DNA of 22,119 nucleotides, taken from a virus. Below are positions 2,260 to 22,119 of the stretch, piece by piece; the stretch's first letter is position 1; the number at the start of each line of letters is the position of its first letter. A program made the translations under genes and the position numbers. The notes beneath the pieces were generated by a model that worked only from the letters and a program-made list of their open reading frames with translations, did not search any database and was not told the origin of the DNA. The stretch lies in IMG/VR virus record IMGVR_UViG_3300020471_001013, positions 1 to 22,119 of that record; one strand, written 5' to 3'.

Positions 2260-5200
2260 ATGGCCCAGCCACCTACCTACACACGCCAATACAATTTCAA
2301 CGATTATTCGACCAGTAATCCGTCCACGCCCCACCTGGGTTCAAAGATTGACCTGGAGTTGGATACGGCAAAGACCACGCTGGACGCATTAAAGAGTAAT
2401 TTAGGGGTTATCCAGCGTGATGACGGGAAGCTCCGCAATCTGTCAGTCCATACAGAGGCGTTATCAAATGCTGTATTGACGCTGATCAAGGCAACCGAAA
2501 ACGGTTATGGCGTAAAAGGGTCCTGGGCCGCAAGCACGGCTTATGCGGTAGGTGATTTAGTAGAGTCTTCCCAAGCGACCTATTTATGTTTTGAGGCTCA
2601 CACCTCCGGCCTCACCTTTGGGGCAAACAGCTCCAAGTTCATCCTGTTAGCAAATGCGGCCATCCAGACCACGGCAAGTGCTGTAGACACGTTAAGCGGG
2701 GATGGAACGACAACGACTTTCACCTTAACAAACAATTCTCCGTCTGGAGTGACGGATGTATTGGTATTCGTGAATGGGAGTTTACGGACCCCGACTACGG
2801 ATTACACGATTCCGAGCAATACCCAGATCACGTTTCAAACGGCTCCGTCAAATGCGACCAACAATGTCATTGTCTGGGGAACGTCAACGGTGGTTGAAGC
2901 GGCAAAAGCGGCGGCACAATCGGCCCGTGACACGGCTGAAACGCACCGTGATGACGCAAATGAGCATAAAATAACGGCAAATAGTTGGGCAAATCATGTT
3001 GAAGGCACAGTTATCGACATTGATTCAACAATAGACAGCAACGAATATTCCGCCAAGGCTTATGCAATTGCAGAATCTACACCCACCACGATTTATGTAA
3101 CGGTTCCAAATGGGAAATTTGCTTTTAATGGTAAAACGATTCTTACGGGTTCTGAATCTCTTTATAACGTCATTAAAGGATCAACTTACACGTTTGATGT
3201 AAGCGACACCACAAATAATGGGCATCAGCTGGAATTCAGCACATCCGCTGAAGATGCCACTCCGGATTATACCGTTACACGAAATGGGACACCTGGTCAA
3301 TCTGGTGCGACAGTAAGTTTTGCGGTTCCTGCAAATGTAGCCAATACGATTTATTTTTATTGTTCTACTTCAGGGCATACGGGCATGGGTGCAACCCTTT
3401 CAGCAATTGCCGAAAGTTATGCTCCATCCGTAAGATCGGCAAAGGAATGGGCCTCCAAGACAGATGGAGAAGTCATTAATTTGGGAGCTGGTATTGGCTC
3501 CGAGTACAGTTCAAAGATGTATGCCCAGGAGACAAGCGGGGATCATTCGCATGGTGGATCCTCGAGGGGTTGGGCGCAGACGGCAAAGAACACGCAAGTC
3601 CCTGGTGCGTCATCCACCGACCGATCCGCGAAGCATTATAGTGAGGTAGCGGCGGATCACAAAACGGATGCCGAGTCAGCAAAGACGGCGGCAGAAACGG
3701 CATTGGATTCGTTTGATGACCGTTATTTAGGGTCCAAGACGGTATCTTCTCATCCGGCCCTGGACAATGATGGGAACAGTCTTTTAACGGGTGCATTGTA
3801 TTGGAACACGGGATCCGGAGGCATCACTCAAGGGATGTATGTTTACAATGGATCCAGCTGGGATACATTGCGGACTTCGGTAGGCGGGGATACGGTCACC
3901 AGCTCCAGCGGGAATAACCTGAACCTGGTCACCCCATCCAACTCAAACAATGTTATCATCAACTCAGGTTCCAACTCAATCCAACTTCCTAACGTAAGAG
4001 CGTCCCAGGACAACTATGTTCTTGCGATGACTGACAAGACTACTGGTGAAACCGCATGGCAAGTCACGTCAACCGCACCAACGGTCTTAGGGGTCACTTC
4101 GGGGCAGTTAAATACTGCTGAAACATTAGCAACCCGAACGGGAACGACAACTTCAGGAAGCACCACAATATCTGCAATTTCTACTACTAATTTAGTTGGT
4201 GGTGAATATGTATATGGTGATGGAATTCCTGCAAATACTACTATCTCTTCAATTAGTCAGGCTTCAACTTCAACCAATAGTGATGGTTCAATAGTCATCT
4301 CCAATTCTGCAACCGCAAGTGCTTCTGGAGTAACTTTAAGCATCACAAGCCCAGGTGAGCCAAAAGGTGGAACCTTAGTCATTGCAGGATCAGATTTTGG
4401 GACAAACATTAGTAGTATTACTGTTGTAAGAATTTGTGCATCGGATGGTACTTCGCAGGTTAATGCAACGACATTATCAAATTTAAGCGACACCAGCATC
4501 ACTGCAACATGGAATGGAACAGAGTCAGGATACTCTACGTTTTCAGGGGTATATTATGTTGAAATAGTGAAATCTGGACTAACCTCCAATCGTTTTAATT
4601 CAACCAAAAGTTTTAGTAATGATCCTACAATTTCATCCGTAACAGGAACAGGGGAAGAAGGTGATAATGTCACAGTAACCGCATCAAATCTTGGAAGCTA
4701 TGGAGGTTCAGTCGCAGGAGGAGGTCAGGACAGTAACACAAAACTACTCTTAAATTTCGACAGAACTGGTGGAACGGACATAGAGGATTCGTCCAACACT
4801 GGTGGCGAGGGGCATAAGGTAATTGCAAACGGAAATGCAGTCATCAAAGCCAGCCCTTTTGGGGATGGTAAGTCAGCGATGTTCTTTGATGGGACAAATA
4901 ACTATTTAAGTATCCCAGCCAGTTCAGATTTAGCTCTTGGAACAGGGGATTTTACTATTGAAGCATGGGTATATAGCACTGATTGGAGTCATGCTTCATA
5001 TATTAACCTTTTTGATTTTCGGAATGGTGATCAAGACACAGATGCCTTTTGGTTAGGTTTTGAGGGAACCGAATATTTTTCAACTGATGGTCGGTTATAT
5101 ATGTATCATAACGGCGTAAGACACTTAGATTCTGACAATGCTGTATTTCCCACTAATGAATGGCATCATTTAGCAGTAACAAGGGTTGGGGCTACAATTA

Positions 5201-8184
5201 CAGCGTATGTGGATGGGGTGGCAACTGGCACAACTTACAATATAGGGTCAACAACTGATTTAAGTGGTCAAAATCCTGTTTATATTGGTAGATACTTTAG
5301 TAGTAATCAATATCATTTTAAAGGATATCTAGACGAAATCCGCATCGTCAAAGGCACTGCCGTTTACACCTCAAATTTTACAGTGCCAACCAGCCGATTA
5401 ACAGCAATTACGAATACCAAATTGCTGATTCACAGTGATCAGAATGTCGATAGCTCAGATTTCAATCATCCATCAACACAACATGATGGTGCTATCCCTG
5501 CTCTAGTGGGGAGTCAAAGTGCTTGGAAGTTTGATGGGGCTTCTGACCGCATAACATTTCCTCAATACTCAAATGCCTTTAATTTAGGAAATGGAGCATT
5601 CACAGTAGAGGCATATATCAACTTTATTAATCTTCCTACTACATCTGGTAGTGCGAGGTTTCATCCTATTTATAGAATTGGAGGGGTCGGCGGAAACAAT
5701 CTTAATTTAGTCGACCTTATGAATAATAGTGGAACTTACCAACTCCGATACCATGATAATGTTACGGGATCTGTTTCGGTAGATTGGAGTACCCCATCTA
5801 CTGGCACTTGGTATCATTTTGCAGTGACTAGAAATGGGGCTGAAGTTAAATTTTACATTGATGGTTCACAAGTAGGAAGCACACAGACAATTAATGCTTC
5901 CACGCCTATTGATGCAGAAGCAGGACCATTACAGATTGGTGGTGACTCATACGATAGTCGCTGGTTTGACGGATACATTCAGAATTTTAGATTAACATCA
6001 ATGTTAGTCTACACTGGTAATTTCACGAAACCAACTCAGTCAATTAATTTAACTAAAACTTGGTCAGCTAGTAGCCCAGCAGGATATACCGTAAGCGAAA
6101 TTACTTCAGGTGTAGTAGTGGCAAACACTACATCATCCAATGTTAAACTTTTAGTACATGGAGATGGAGCAAAGTTTACCGATAGTTCCTCTGGAACAAC
6201 CCACACCATAACCGCAACAGGCGCATATCACAGCCAAGGCCACGGAGGAATCGCCCCTGCTATGGCATGGCCTTCAAGCCTGAAGAAGACTGGATCGGCA
6301 GGGGTTTATTTTGATGGGAGTGATGATGCTTTATCAATTACAAATTTGTCATCAATTAGTGGTGATTTTACAGTAGATTTTTGGATTTGGCCTGACAAAA
6401 GTGATGATAGTGAAACAATTTCAATATTTTATGATGGTCGTGATTCAAGCAACTCTAACGGCTTTGCCTTATCTTTTGTTAAATCAACAGGCAGATTAAA
6501 ATTTTATAATGCTTCAGGATCTGCTTCATATATTATTGATGAGCCAACTGATCGTTATCTTAGTTTTTACCAATGGAATCATGTTGCGTTTGTCAGAAGT
6601 TCAAACACCTTACAGTTATATGTAGATGGGCAAGTCTCTTCTACTACTGCATCATTTAGTGCAAATTTTACTTCTACAACTGGTATGTTAGGTAGATTTA
6701 GAGGTGCTAGTTCGCATGAGTTTAAAGGGTATATTGATTCTTTCAGAATTATAAATTCCGCAGAATACACCTCAAATTTTACCCCACCCACCAAAATCTA
6801 CGGAGCTATGTTTCCTACAAACCCATCCGTAGGAACTATTACAATTACGGGTGCTACAACTGATTCAACTGATATTGCTTTTACTGAAATAAATAGCAGT
6901 TTGCCCAACGGACTAACGCTGAACGACCAGGGTGCAGGAGATCAAACTGCAACGATCACAGGAACACTTACAGACGTTGTTGGTTCTGACACTACGACTT
7001 CAAACATCCGCATACAAGCAAAGGCGAATAATGATGCAAACAGGATTACAGAAGTAAACGAAAGTAGTGGTGTAGGTGCTGTAAGTATTACGAAGAAATC
7101 TGGTGGAAAACCTATTCTGTTTAATGCACGAAGATTTGCAGCTACTGGTACAGTCAGAACTATAAATGGATTTGGATTCCAACCTGATTTAATTTGGATA
7201 AAGGCACGGGACAGAGCGACAAATCACTACATTCAGGATTCTCTTAGAGGGGCGCAAAATTTATTAATCACAAACGACGTTAATGCGGAGTTTGTAAATG
7301 ACCGAATAGATGGGTTTGTGCCAGACGGAGTAAAAATTACAAATGACGATGAATTTAACAAAGGGACTGGAGATCACAGTGCAATAGCTTGGGGTTGGAA
7401 GGCTGGCGGTTCACCTAGTGCTAATGGGAAGAAGATAGTCGATGGTGTTGAGTCTTCAATAACTTCAGGTGCTTCTGCTGACTATTACAATTTAACTAAT
7501 GTTAAACAATCGATAAATACATTAGGTGATTTTTCAATAACGCAATACACAGGTTCTAGTAGTGACGGTTGGTTTAAACATGGGCTATCTGGTAAGCCAG
7601 ATTGGATTATAGTAAAAAGACTAGGCCAAGCTAATTCGTGGCCTGTCTGGCACAGTGGTTTTGGTGGATCTGGAGGGACAGGTGAGTGGATACTATTAGA
7701 CTCAAACCAACAAAAAGGCTATTGGAATGAGGGTTCAAATGGAACCGCTTGGAATATGTTTGGGACTATCGATAATACTAAAATAAATGTGATGACTAGT
7801 AGTTCTGTTAATTCAGCTTACGCACACATCTGCTACGCCTGGAAAGCGGTGTCAGGCGTATCAGCGTTTGGGAGTTACACAGGTACAGGAACTGGTGGTT
7901 TTGAATCAAATGGGAATGGTGGTGTAAATGATATGGGGTTTAAGCCCAGATGGTTAATGGTCAAACGGATTACATCTGGAGATAGTTGGACAATCTTGGA
8001 TTCATTTAGAGAATCAACTACAGAAAAAACAACAGCTTTATTTGCAAACACTTCTAATACCGATACTTCATCAAGCACATACGGAATTACATTTACAACA
8101 ACAGGGTTTACAATGGACTCAGGATCAACAAGTGGACATATAAATGCAGATGGGCAAACGTACATCTACCATGCCTTTGCATGA
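2260..8184 (+). CDS. Giant modular tail fibre / adhesin, 1974 aa
   Basis: The N-terminus (MAQPPTYTRQYNFNDY...) matches virion-attachment ends of podovirus fibres. Domains by approximate residue: 86-125 a W/Y-G-D/H small fold resembling a carbohydrate-binding module; 139-211 a beta domain (LSGDGTTTTFTL, VFVNG) common in phage fibres; 213-270 and 390-490 Ala-rich stalks; 276-388 a cupredoxin-like domain with H322, C368, H373 and M376 as possible copper ligands; 699-815 a TIG/Ig-like region; three LamG-like modules at 828-1047, 1054-1270 and 1295-1517, each with a FDG, a FT(V/I)-(E/D), and a GY(L/I) signature; 1525-1617 an Ig-like region; 1638-1974 three repeats with PDLIWIK, PDWIIVKR and PRWLMVKR, resembling DUF7483 (family name from memory). 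The role is host binding. From about 4.1 kb on, the gene is AT-richer than its neighbours and GGATCC is missing, suggesting acquisition of this part. Confidence 0.9.
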   Translation: MAQPPTYTRQYNFNDYSTSNPSTPHLGSKIDLELDTAKTTLDALKSNLGVIQRDDGKLRNLSVHTEALSNAVLTLIKATENGYGVKGSWAASTAYAVGDLVESSQATYLCFEAHTSGLTFGANSSKFILLANAAIQTTASAVDTLSGDGTTTTFTLTNNSPSGVTDVLVFVNGSLRTPTTDYTIPSNTQITFQTAPSNATNNVIVWGTSTVVEAAKAAAQSARDTAETHRDDANEHKITANSWANHVEGTVIDIDSTIDSNEYSAKAYAIAESTPTTIYVTVPNGKFAFNGKTILTGSESLYNVIKGSTYTFDVSDTTNNGHQLEFSTSAEDATPDYTVTRNGTPGQSGATVSFAVPANVANTIYFYCSTSGHTGMGATLSAIAESYAPSVRSAKEWASKTDGEVINLGAGIGSEYSSKMYAQETSGDHSHGGSSRGWAQTAKNTQVPGASSTDRSAKHYSEVAADHKTDAESAKTAAETALDSFDDRYLGSKTVSSHPALDNDGNSLLTGALYWNTGSGGITQGMYVYNGSSWDTLRTSVGGDTVTSSSGNNLNLVTPSNSNNVIINSGSNSIQLPNVRASQDNYVLAMTDKTTGETAWQVTSTAPTVLGVTSGQLNTAETLATRTGTTTSGSTTISAISTTNLVGGEYVYGDGIPANTTISSISQASTSTNSDGSIVISNSATASASGVTLSITSPGEPKGGTLVIAGSDFGTNISSITVVRICASDGTSQVNATTLSNLSDTSITATWNGTESGYSTFSGVYYVEIVKSGLTSNRFNSTKSFSNDPTISSVTGTGEEGDNVTVTASNLGSYGGSVAGGGQDSNTKLLLNFDRTGGTDIEDSSNTGGEGHKVIANGNAVIKASPFGDGKSAMFFDGTNNYLSIPASSDLALGTGDFTIEAWVYSTDWSHASYINLFDFRNGDQDTDAFWLGFEGTEYFSTDGRLYMYHNGVRHLDSDNAVFPTNEWHHLAVTRVGATITAYVDGVATGTTYNIGSTTDLSGQNPVYIGRYFSSNQYHFKGYLDEIRIVKGTAVYTSNFTVPTSRLTAITNTKLLIHSDQNVDSSDFNHPSTQHDGAIPALVGSQSAWKFDGASDRITFPQYSNAFNLGNGAFTVEAYINFINLPTTSGSARFHPIYRIGGVGGNNLNLVDLMNNSGTYQLRYHDNVTGSVSVDWSTPSTGTWYHFAVTRNGAEVKFYIDGSQVGSTQTINASTPIDAEAGPLQIGGDSYDSRWFDGYIQNFRLTSMLVYTGNFTKPTQSINLTKTWSASSPAGYTVSEITSGVVVANTTSSNVKLLVHGDGAKFTDSSSGTTHTITATGAYHSQGHGGIAPAMAWPSSLKKTGSAGVYFDGSDDALSITNLSSISGDFTVDFWIWPDKSDDSETISIFYDGRDSSNSNGFALSFVKSTGRLKFYNASGSASYIIDEPTDRYLSFYQWNHVAFVRSSNTLQLYVDGQVSSTTASFSANFTSTTGMLGRFRGASSHEFKGYIDSFRIINSAEYTSNFTPPTKIYGAMFPTNPSVGTITITGATTDSTDIAFTEINSSLPNGLTLNDQGAGDQTATITGTLTDVVGSDTTTSNIRIQAKANNDANRITEVNESSGVGAVSITKKSGGKPILFNARRFAATGTVRTINGFGFQPDLIWIKARDRATNHYIQDSLRGAQNLLITNDVNAEFVNDRIDGFVPDGVKITNDDEFNKGTGDHSAIAWGWKAGGSPSANGKKIVDGVESSITSGASADYYNLTNVKQSINTLGDFSITQYTGSSSDGWFKHGLSGKPDWIIVKRLGQANSWPVWHSGFGGSGGTGEWILLDSNQQKGYWNEGSNGTAWNMFGTIDNTKINVMTSSSVNSAYAHICYAWKAVSGVSAFGSYTGTGTGGFESNGNGGVNDMGFKPRWLMVKRITSGDSWTILDSFRESTTEKTTALFANTSNTDTSSSTYGITFTTTGFTMDSGSTSGHINADGQTYIYHAFA

Positions 8185-8185
8185 A

Positions 8186-9514
8186 ATGACTTCTGAAATC
8201 AGCGTAAACCAGGACATCAGCATCACGCCTGATTTCATCACGCAAGATCAGGTCAAGTTCCTTGAGAACTTTTGCAGAAATATTAAGGAATGGGATCGAT
8301 GCGAGGGGATCTGGGATGACCGTGGTGTGTCAGCAATGACCGACAAGGTTCCGCTGACGATCCAGCTGGCGGTGCATACGTTGTTTCGAAAGATCGAGTA
8401 CAAGATCAAGGAATTTTACAATCTGGATGAGATATATGTGGACACAATCGGTTTCACCAGGTGGAGGCCAGGAGACAAGCAAAGTCCTCATGCAGATGGC
8501 GAAGAGGTGGATGGATCCGCACACCGGAATTACCCGTGGCGTAAATTCGGGTGCATATTGTACTTGAATGATGATTATGAAGGCGGGGAGCTGTATTTAC
8601 CTCAATATGGGATCCAGATGAGGCCGAAACCTGGGACCTTGGCGTTTTTCCCTGGCAATGCGAAGTATCTGCATGGGGTGAAACCTGTCCAGGAGGGGCC
8701 GATCCGCTACAACATTGCGTCATTTTGGACAGACAAAAAGGAAAAAAGATACCGGAAATTTTATGACTACAAGAGTGAAAAACCAGAGGTTCCAGCGGGT
8801 CATATTGCTGTTTTGACGGAGCATCCGGACCATCACAAGACGTTGCCGGACATCCTTCACAGCTTCAAAGGGAATGTGAAGCGGGATTGGTTCGTAAAAC
8901 ACGCTTATCATTGCTTGCCGTTGGTTATTGGGAACCAATATGGGATTGGGATCCGGAGCATGAGCGAATTTAGAGCCACCTGGAACGGCGGACCCAAACA
9001 AAATGATGTCGTTGTGGAGTTTGAGGACAAGATGCATGAGCATCAAAAGATTGAAGCTCATTTTGGGATGGGTACGGTGACGATCCAGAACCGATTCAAC
9101 TTCATGACCCCTCCTGGAGTCAATTTAATGACAATTAACCCTCCCAATCATTGGATTGACGGTGTTCAGCACATGACGGGAGTGATAGAAACAGACAATT
9201 TACGGCGTGATTTCACGTTTAATCTAAAATTAACCCGTCCTGGACACACGGTTCATGTCAAAAAGGGTGAATTTATCGGGTGTGTGATCCCGATCCCCCG
9301 ATATTTCGTGGACAGCTTCGAATGGAAGGTAGCAGAGGAGCTGTTCCGCACGGAAGATGTGTGGAAGGGGCGTAAAGCCAAGTCAGATTTTGGGTTAGAA
9401 CGAAGGTTTGAGGACCCAGATAAGCCGAATCGCAATGGATTGCGTTATCGGAAAGGTGTGGACATTTATGGAAATGAATTTCCGGACCACCAGGTAAGCA
9501 TGAAGCGAAAATAG
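8186..9514 (+). CDS. 2-oxoglutarate/Fe(II) oxygenase fused to a DUF6065-like domain
   Basis: Residues 10-180 form a prolyl-4-hydroxylase-like oxygenase. The iron ligands H102-x-D104 (in SPHADGEE) and H163 (YLHGV), and R174 for 2-oxoglutarate, are all present, so it should be active. Residues about 190-385 match DUF6065 in pattern (YHCLPLVIGNQYG, ATWNGG, HFGMGTVT, TGVIETDNLRRDFTFNLKLTRP); that family has no known function. A charged tail follows. The substrate is unknown: virion, host protein or envelope modification are possible. Start: ATG 8186 follows the fibre stop by one base (TGAAATG, as at 511-517). In-frame ATGs at 8144 and 8171 would overlap the fibre; none has a clear ribosome-binding site. 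The place next to the fibre suggests late expression. Confidence 0.85.
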   Translation: MTSEISVNQDISITPDFITQDQVKFLENFCRNIKEWDRCEGIWDDRGVSAMTDKVPLTIQLAVHTLFRKIEYKIKEFYNLDEIYVDTIGFTRWRPGDKQSPHADGEEVDGSAHRNYPWRKFGCILYLNDDYEGGELYLPQYGIQMRPKPGTLAFFPGNAKYLHGVKPVQEGPIRYNIASFWTDKKEKRYRKFYDYKSEKPEVPAGHIAVLTEHPDHHKTLPDILHSFKGNVKRDWFVKHAYHCLPLVIGNQYGIGIRSMSEFRATWNGGPKQNDVVVEFEDKMHEHQKIEAHFGMGTVTIQNRFNFMTPPGVNLMTINPPNHWIDGVQHMTGVIETDNLRRDFTFNLKLTRPGHTVHVKKGEFIGCVIPIPRYFVDSFEWKVAEELFRTEDVWKGRKAKSDFGLERRFEDPDKPNRNGLRYRKGVDIYGNEFPDHQVSMKRK

Positions 9515-21877: not shown

Positions 21878-22119
21878 ATGGAACGGATTGAGGTACTGGA
21901 GAATCTAAGGCTGGTCCCGTTTTTCGCCCAGACGGGAACCATTTGTTTGTGTAGTGGTAGTAGCGATCCGCCCCCGCCACCACCTCCGCCACCTCCGCCC
22001 CCTTTTAATCCTTCTGGACCTTATAAAGGAGCGGATCCGCCCCCTCCGCCACCACCTCCACCACCACCTCCACCACCACCTCCGCCACCGCCTCCTCCGC
22101 CACCGCCTCCTCCGCCTCC
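21878..22119 (+). CDS. Polyproline protein, partial (C-terminus beyond right edge)
   Basis: ATG 21878 lies one base after the previous stop; no ribosome-binding site is seen, so coupling is likely. An alternative start is TTG 21947 (MCSGSSD...), which would match the short Cys/Gly-type N-termini of neighbouring virion genes. Residues 31-42 are 12 consecutive prolines (21968-22003); after the spacer FNPSGPYKGAD a second run starts at residue 54 (22037) and continues for at least 28 residues to the window edge. Codons are mixed CCA/CCG/CCT, so it is not a simple trinucleotide repeat. Both runs follow a GATCCGCCCCC start. The protein probably belongs to the internal-virion group; a rigid polyproline-II rod is expected. 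Confidence 0.65.
   Translation, partial: MERIEVLENLRLVPFFAQTGTICLCSGSSDPPPPPPPPPPPPFNPSGPYKGADPPPPPPPPPPPPPPPPPPPPPPPPPPP
21968..22119 (+). repeat. Two CCN (polyproline) tracts
   Basis: The tracts are 12 CCN codons (21968-22003) and at least 28 CCN codons (22037 to the edge), separated by 33 nt. They begin alike (GATCCGCCCCC), which suggests duplication. Third bases vary between A, G, T and C, so selection on protein rather than recent slippage is suggested, though units such as CCACCACCT recur in the second tract. Confidence 0.8.

Follow-up and report, generated by a model that had tools for sequence, protein, structure and literature searches.

The window, a stretch of viral DNA analysed here at its full length of 22,119 nucleotides, contains a gene in which a 2-oxoglutarate (2OG)-Fe(II) oxygenase and a DUF6065 domain share one reading frame. 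Aquatic phages commonly carry 2OG oxygenases as accessory genes whose role is unexplained. The use that viruses make of prolyl 4-hydroxylase "remains cryptic" (PMC9301287), and no paper mentioning DUF6065 was found in the open-access literature. What does the enzyme hydroxylate, and what does the attached domain contribute? With a confidence slightly above even, we favour the reading that the gene encodes a prolyl hydroxylase acting on the phage's own proline-rich virion-associated proteins, as judged from sequence and gene neighbourhood.

The fused gene and its genome context

The window is a 22-kb virus record classed as linear, and it is perhaps a genome fragment for that reason. Its gene order is podovirus-like, with small terminase, fibre, fused gene, cell-wall hydrolase, large terminase, portal-like, scaffold-like, capsid and tail-like genes followed by a polyproline protein; the portal, scaffold and tail names are our assumption, assigned by position. 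The features discussed are collected in Table 1.

Table 1. Positions of the fused gene, its domains and the neighbouring features in the window
Feature	Position	Strand	Details
Fused 2OG-Fe(II) oxygenase-DUF6065 gene	8186..9514	+	442 aa, one open frame
Prolyl-hydroxylase-like 2OG-Fe(II) domain	8186..8740	+	Residues 1-185; Pfam, alignment, PDB profile
Fe/2OG residues of the oxygenase	8489, 8495, 8672, 8705		H102, D104, H163, R174, respectively
Complete DUF6065 domain, predicted dUTPase-like beta-clip fold	8795..9511	+	Residues 204-442; Pfam, alignments, model, fold matches
Fibre gene upstream of the fused gene	2260..8184	+	LamG and DUF7483 domains; context
Polyproline protein, incomplete at the end of the contig	21878..22119	+	P12 and P27+ runs; candidate substrate

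A first-pass annotation had described an oxygenase-DUF6065 fusion with intact H-x-D...H...R residues and a start coupled to the fibre gene, and its coordinates, frame and both domains proved correct. Searches of Pfam with hmmscan matched 2OG-FeII_Oxy_3 (PF13640) to residues 90-180 (E 5.7e-12; 46.9 bits, cut-off 27) and DUF6065 (PF19541) to residues 228-439 (E 8.1e-41; 140.5 bits, cut-off 26.6), the latter match spanning profile positions 15-233 of 236. The four Fe/2OG residues were invariant in an alignment of nine diverse homologues. With a match over the curated cut-off and both the Fe triad and the basic 2OG residue intact, the product is assigned to the 2OG-Fe(II) oxygenase superfamily, and the C-terminal half of the protein is likewise assigned to the DUF6065 family. 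The frame is open from 8144 and holds in-frame ATG codons at 8144, 8150, 8171 and 8186, among which the true start is not certain. One base separates the fibre stop codon (TGA, 8182-8184) from the ATG at 8186, and no clear Shine-Dalgarno sequence precedes that ATG. This arrangement fits coupled translation, and the two genes are probably coupled as the first-pass annotation had it.

Even the N-terminal part of free-standing DUF6065 proteins is retained in the DUF6065 half, where 'VPAGHIAVLTEHPD...SFKGN' is colinear with 'VPENKIVTIPEN...SFKGN' in the alignment, so that two complete proteins are joined. L002, the viral relative that was identified first, encodes the oxygenase and DUF6065 in two genes, 42% and 59% identical to the respective halves of the window protein. 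No second fused frame was found among the loci gathered, which comprised 183 oxygenase and 132 DUF6065 frames. A search of the phage genome collection gave no match to DUF6065, and the full 442-residue protein was matched weakly there, via its oxygenase part.

The oxygenase is most closely related to prolyl hydroxylases

A profile built from the nine oxygenase sequences was searched against the Protein Data Bank. It matched prolyl 3-hydroxylase P3H1 (1.8e-10), a bacterial prolyl 4-hydroxylase (P4H; 4.9e-10) and the Chlorella virus P4H (3.1e-6). PiuC, a PKHD-type hydroxylase, ranked behind them, and all matches were prolyl or PKHD-type hydroxylases. The best single-sequence PDB match of the window protein was the Chlorella virus P4H. 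The closest sequence kinship of the oxygenase is thus judged to be with the known prolyl hydroxylases (P4H/P3H). A lysine at the position that binds the 2OG C5-carboxylate is typical of P4H. The window enzyme and its homologues have the invariant Arg174 there, and the aligned segment of P3H1 also has an arginine. Since this is closer to P3H1 than to a typical P4H, the enzyme is not claimed to be a P4H proper, and 3- or 4-hydroxylation are both possible.

DUF6065 has a predicted dUTPase-like fold

A DUF6065 model made from 51 sequences reached a pLDDT of 93.1 and replaced an earlier, poor one made from 11 sequences (pLDDT 61.7). The fold matches of the model (Foldseek, VIA) were dUTPases, among them 3lqw (Z 11.0, 4.8 A over 127 residues) and 5y5p (Z 10.5, 2.7 A over 119 residues). 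According to the model, the DUF6065 subunit has the trimeric-dUTPase (beta-clip) fold, an assignment made from lists filled by dUTPases and with other beta-clip families outside what those lists can resolve. No PDB sequence relative of DUF6065 was found. In an alignment with E. coli dut the segment GVIETDN...VKKGEFIGCVIPIPR lines up with dUTPase motifs 3 and 4; the profile support for this is marginal. Compared with the trimeric dUTPases (PF00692), DUF6065 therefore shares the fold, with Z up to 11.0, and a recognisable motif 3/4 region, but the catalytic Asp is replaced by Glu, the active-site Tyr by Asn and the motif-2 Arg-Ser by Pro-Asn. In most of the 51 sequences E-T-D-N and P-P-N replace the Asp/Tyr of IDSDY and the R-S of motif 2, and because these catalytic motifs are lost DUF6065 is not classed as a dUTPase.

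The conserved residues C243, P245, N321, E335, D337 and R372 suggest that a pocket has been kept. The most likely role of DUF6065 is to bind the substrate or to serve as a scaffold for the hydroxylase; selection of the substrate, as first proposed for this gene, is a possible role. dUTPases are trimers, and it may be conjectured that a three-fold DUF6065 scaffold with three hydroxylase domains would be well matched to trimeric tail proteins. The domain is used differently on two cellular contigs (L234 and L235), where DUF6065 is fused to tetratricopeptide repeats and no 2OG gene lies beside it. The small genes upstream of cyanobacterial DUF6065 genes had no Pfam match.

Proline-rich proteins recur beside the oxygenase

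A scan with the DUF6065 profile yielded 18 viral loci, most of which have the order fibre, polyproline protein, 2OG oxygenase, an occasional glycosyltransferase (GT) and DUF6065. The protein directly upstream of the oxygenase in most of these loci follows a long fibre and consists of small globular domains separated by stretches of 7-32 prolines. Because the loci had been found through the window's own DUF6065 they are not an unbiased sample, and the scan was repeated with the oxygenase profile, giving 75 dereplicated oxygenases, viral and cellular, with several per contig in some arrays. A neighbour was counted as proline-rich if an open reading frame no more than 3 kb from the oxygenase had at least 10 prolines in 20 residues. 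Such a frame accompanied 28 of the 75 oxygenases and 21 of the 49 paired with DUF6065, so that a polyproline or extensin-like neighbour is missing within 3 kb for over half of the paired enzymes. The repeats in the new lineages are of the types PPPPPRF, PPPPPSF, PPFF and PPVT, with proline runs of up to 53. Mapped on the oxygenase tree, the proline-rich-neighbour label changes at least 15 times, suggesting that the linkage was gained or lost repeatedly.

Two comparisons bear on the background frequency. Among 72 terminase relatives representing the window's phage group, 0 of 512 genes had a run of eight or more prolines within 2.5 kb, and no 2OG or DUF6065 gene was found in the loci of these relatives. 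In a set of 80 loci selected through the S74 fibre domain, only three contigs were proline-rich (L326, L380 and L320), all with a neighbouring 2OG gene; for L320 this gene is on L245, the next stretch of its contig. The reverse relation did not hold: PF13640 had no match in 24 viral records with other polyproline frames in which the proline frame was the larger, so polyproline does not predict the enzyme. A (CCN)12 pattern scan of viral contigs recovered mostly glycine-rich genes on the opposite strand. On L241, the contig with the closest kin of the window oxygenase, 15 kb of sequence contain no seven CCN codons in a row.

In the window itself the polyproline protein mentioned by the first-pass annotation does exist, running from 21878 to the contig end with proline runs of 12 and at least 27. 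It lies about 12 kb from the fused gene, in a slot that is held by a different gene in relatives; ten genes read in that slot in the window's phage group had no proline run. The contig ends inside the polyproline repeat, and several relatives also break in or near polyproline genes. In the window, the low-complexity CCN sequence probably broke the assembly. By these sequence comparisons, a proline-rich protein is encoded together with the hydroxylase both in the window, as a truncated candidate substrate, and in relatives.

The pair is also found in other settings. Gammaproteobacterial, comamonad and planctomycete metagenome-assembled genomes (MAGs) have 2OG-DUF6065 pairs with neither phage genes nor a proline-rich neighbour. 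Conservation of the pair away from virion genes, which the first-pass annotation had named as evidence against its reading, was thus found in part, and the use of the pair is not confined to virion modification; the substrates of the bacterial pairs may differ from those of the phage ones. A contig binned as a Pseudomonas MAG (L214) has polyproline protein, 2OG and DUF6065 genes in phage order and may be viral DNA that was placed in a bacterial bin.

Phage proteins resembling beads on a polyproline string (L011:5436-6542, L020:5530-6654 and L002:7019-7789) have a short N-terminal domain (MALPxSGPI...DEFYG) followed by globular domains of about 60-80 residues split by runs of 11-32 prolines. 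Most polyproline proteins had no PHROG match. In L016-L019, a different phage context, the pair lies near rubrerythrin-like and DNA ligase genes and lacks a polyproline protein; in L018 a collagen-like GPP protein is upstream of it. L264, L277, L286 and L316 have 2OG oxygenase genes in tandem, up to eight or nine different ones in an array that also includes one or two DUF6065 genes.

Genes of hydroxyproline glycosyltransferase families adjoin the pair

Genes of PF11397, which we take to be the family of the Skp1-type enzyme that adds GlcNAc to the hydroxyproline of Skp1, adjoin the 2OG-DUF6065 pair in five loci (L263, L267, L268, L270 and L294; E 1e-29 to 1e-39). Of 44 contigs that carry this type of oxygenase, 7 had the family, against 0 of 50 control contigs. 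A search for PF11397 in the window record, an incomplete genome, gave no match, and the PF11397-like GT had no PDB sequence relative. In the Skp1 pathway of Dictyostelium and Toxoplasma, the prolyl 4-hydroxylase PhyA is followed by the hydroxyproline GlcNAc-transferase Gnt1 (PMC3515798).

A hydroxyproline O-arabinosyltransferase (HPAT) domain is fused to DUF6065 in two genes of one planctomycete (L223:4155-5840 and L232:4957-6729); one match exceeds the cut-off (E 2.5e-7) and the other falls slightly short of it (E 3.7e-5). A 2OG gene lies immediately upstream of one of the two copies. In a sample of 392 genomes from the planctomycete phylum, the one with this fusion was the single HPAT carrier. 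In L241 a GT gene overlaps the oxygenase start; a direct scan gave it a weak HPAT match (E 0.006), and its similarity to the planctomycete HPAT domain is marginal. A scan for further relatives of this GT returned it alone, and a six-frame search of 46 viral records found no HPAT over the cut-off. Wider operons of other phages include GT7-type transferases, an epimerase and a methyltransferase, as in L011. Radical SAM-like proteins were recognised by eye in two glycan clusters with the pair (L002:15857-17317 and L241:2203-3420). No other single argument for proline hydroxylation, the predicted chemistry, is as strong as the presence of two unrelated hydroxyproline GT families beside one and the same pair.

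Proposed function and alternative substrates

We propose that, with O2, Fe(II) and 2-oxoglutarate, the 2OG-Fe(II) domain adds hydroxyl groups to prolines within proline-rich stretches of the phage's own virion-associated proteins. In the window phage the candidate substrate would be the polyproline protein starting at 21878. DUF6065, probably trimeric and with its dUTPase active site lost, would bind this substrate or scaffold the hydroxylase. Since GTs of hydroxyproline-acting families often adjoin separate 2OG and DUF6065 genes in relatives, the new hydroxyl would probably often serve as the handle for an O-linked sugar added by those neighbouring enzymes. For the window phage we infer the substrate, the chemistry, the role of DUF6065 and any glycosylation from comparison with these relatives.

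Could the target lie elsewhere? Some bacterial prolyl hydroxylases act on EF-Tu, and the enzyme might hydroxylate a host protein or another host component during infection, its closeness to fibre and proline-rich genes merely marking a variable genomic region. The cellular pairs described above are consistent with this, as is the presence of 2OG oxygenases near phage fibres anyway (18 of the 80 fibre loci). We nevertheless consider a host target unlikely, as proline-rich neighbours with repeats of various types turn up again and again in distinct lineages and are all but missing around genes of the window's phage group. The neighbouring fibre would be another target, modified for collagen-like stabilisation or receptor tuning; its gene adjoins the enzyme gene and is probably coupled to it, a collagen-like protein is encoded upstream in L018, and the L011 fibre matched collagen weakly. 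This appears improbable, because the window fibre matches LamG and DUF7483 and no collagen model, and the recurrent neighbour in relatives is a proline-rich protein and not one fibre type.

Two further readings place the product outside proteins, and we give both very little credence. In the one, the oxygenase would be TET/JBP-like and, together with a nucleotide-binding partner of dUTPase fold, would hypermodify nucleotides or DNA bases, which would then be glycosylated. The fold of DUF6065 and the nearby GTs are compatible with this, and the window protein matches Tet_JBP (PF12851) below the cut-off (22.0 bits, cut-off 34.9). The PDB profile matches to prolyl and PKHD-type hydroxylases, the replaced dUTPase motifs and the fact that the nameable neighbouring GTs belong to hydroxyproline protein families argue against it. 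In the other, a small molecule or sugar would be hydroxylated within a glycan operon, DUF6065 binding a nucleotide sugar. The epimerase, methyltransferase and GT7-type genes of L011 favour such a role, but the oxygenase is akin to protein prolyl hydroxylases and the proline-rich linkage would be left unexplained. The first-pass annotation had listed modification of the fibre, for instance by proline or lysine hydroxylation, of the polyproline protein or of a host surface component; proline hydroxylation and the polyproline protein have gained strong comparative support, whereas the fibre, lysine and the host surface component have gained none.

Prolyl hydroxylation of proline-rich virion proteins could be part of a wider scheme, which we advance tentatively and hold to be possible at somewhat less than even confidence. 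Tailed phages would encode hydroxyproline-glycoprotein pathways in which a prolyl hydroxylase, a Skp1/Gnt1- or HPAT-type GT and DUF6065 decorate the polyproline linkers of tail or virion proteins. The receptor-binding apparatus would thereby gain an extensin-like glycoprotein, and the window phage would have fused the hydroxylase and DUF6065 of such a pathway. One large family of phage 2OG oxygenases would now have a concrete substrate class and partner set, and if this is true, hydroxyproline glycosylation is also a phage system, and DUF6065 gains a structural frame and a likely role.

Comparison with known systems

Hydroxyproline glycosylation is known from plants and protists, and no phage hydroxyproline system was found in the open-access literature. 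The P4H of Chlorella virus PBCV-1 (PDB 5c5t; PMC7019647) is, like the window enzyme, a small virus-encoded prolyl hydroxylase, but its virus infects a eukaryote and it lacks DUF6065. The 2OG-Fe(II) oxygenases of cyanophages resemble the window's in being common in marine phages with an unexplained role; DNA repair or 2OG metabolism was proposed for them, and in the excerpt of that source they are not tied to proline-rich proteins, hydroxyproline GTs or DUF6065 (PMC3037559).

The Skp1 pathway is paralleled in several relatives of the window gene, where a prolyl-hydroxylase-like 2OG enzyme is encoded with a PF11397 GT. The putative system described here differs in being phage-encoded, in being tied to proline-rich virion-associated proteins instead of Skp1 and in the additional DUF6065, and the window lacks PF11397. 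The plant extensin/arabinogalactan pathway, which combines P4H and HPAT, differs in its arabinosyltransferase, as the viruses examined had the one weak HPAT match in L241 and none over the cut-off. It is resembled in the PPPPSF-like repeat proteins, the P4H-like oxygenase and the planctomycete HPAT-DUF6065 fusion. Phages may thus make hydroxyproline glycoproteins as plants and slime moulds do.
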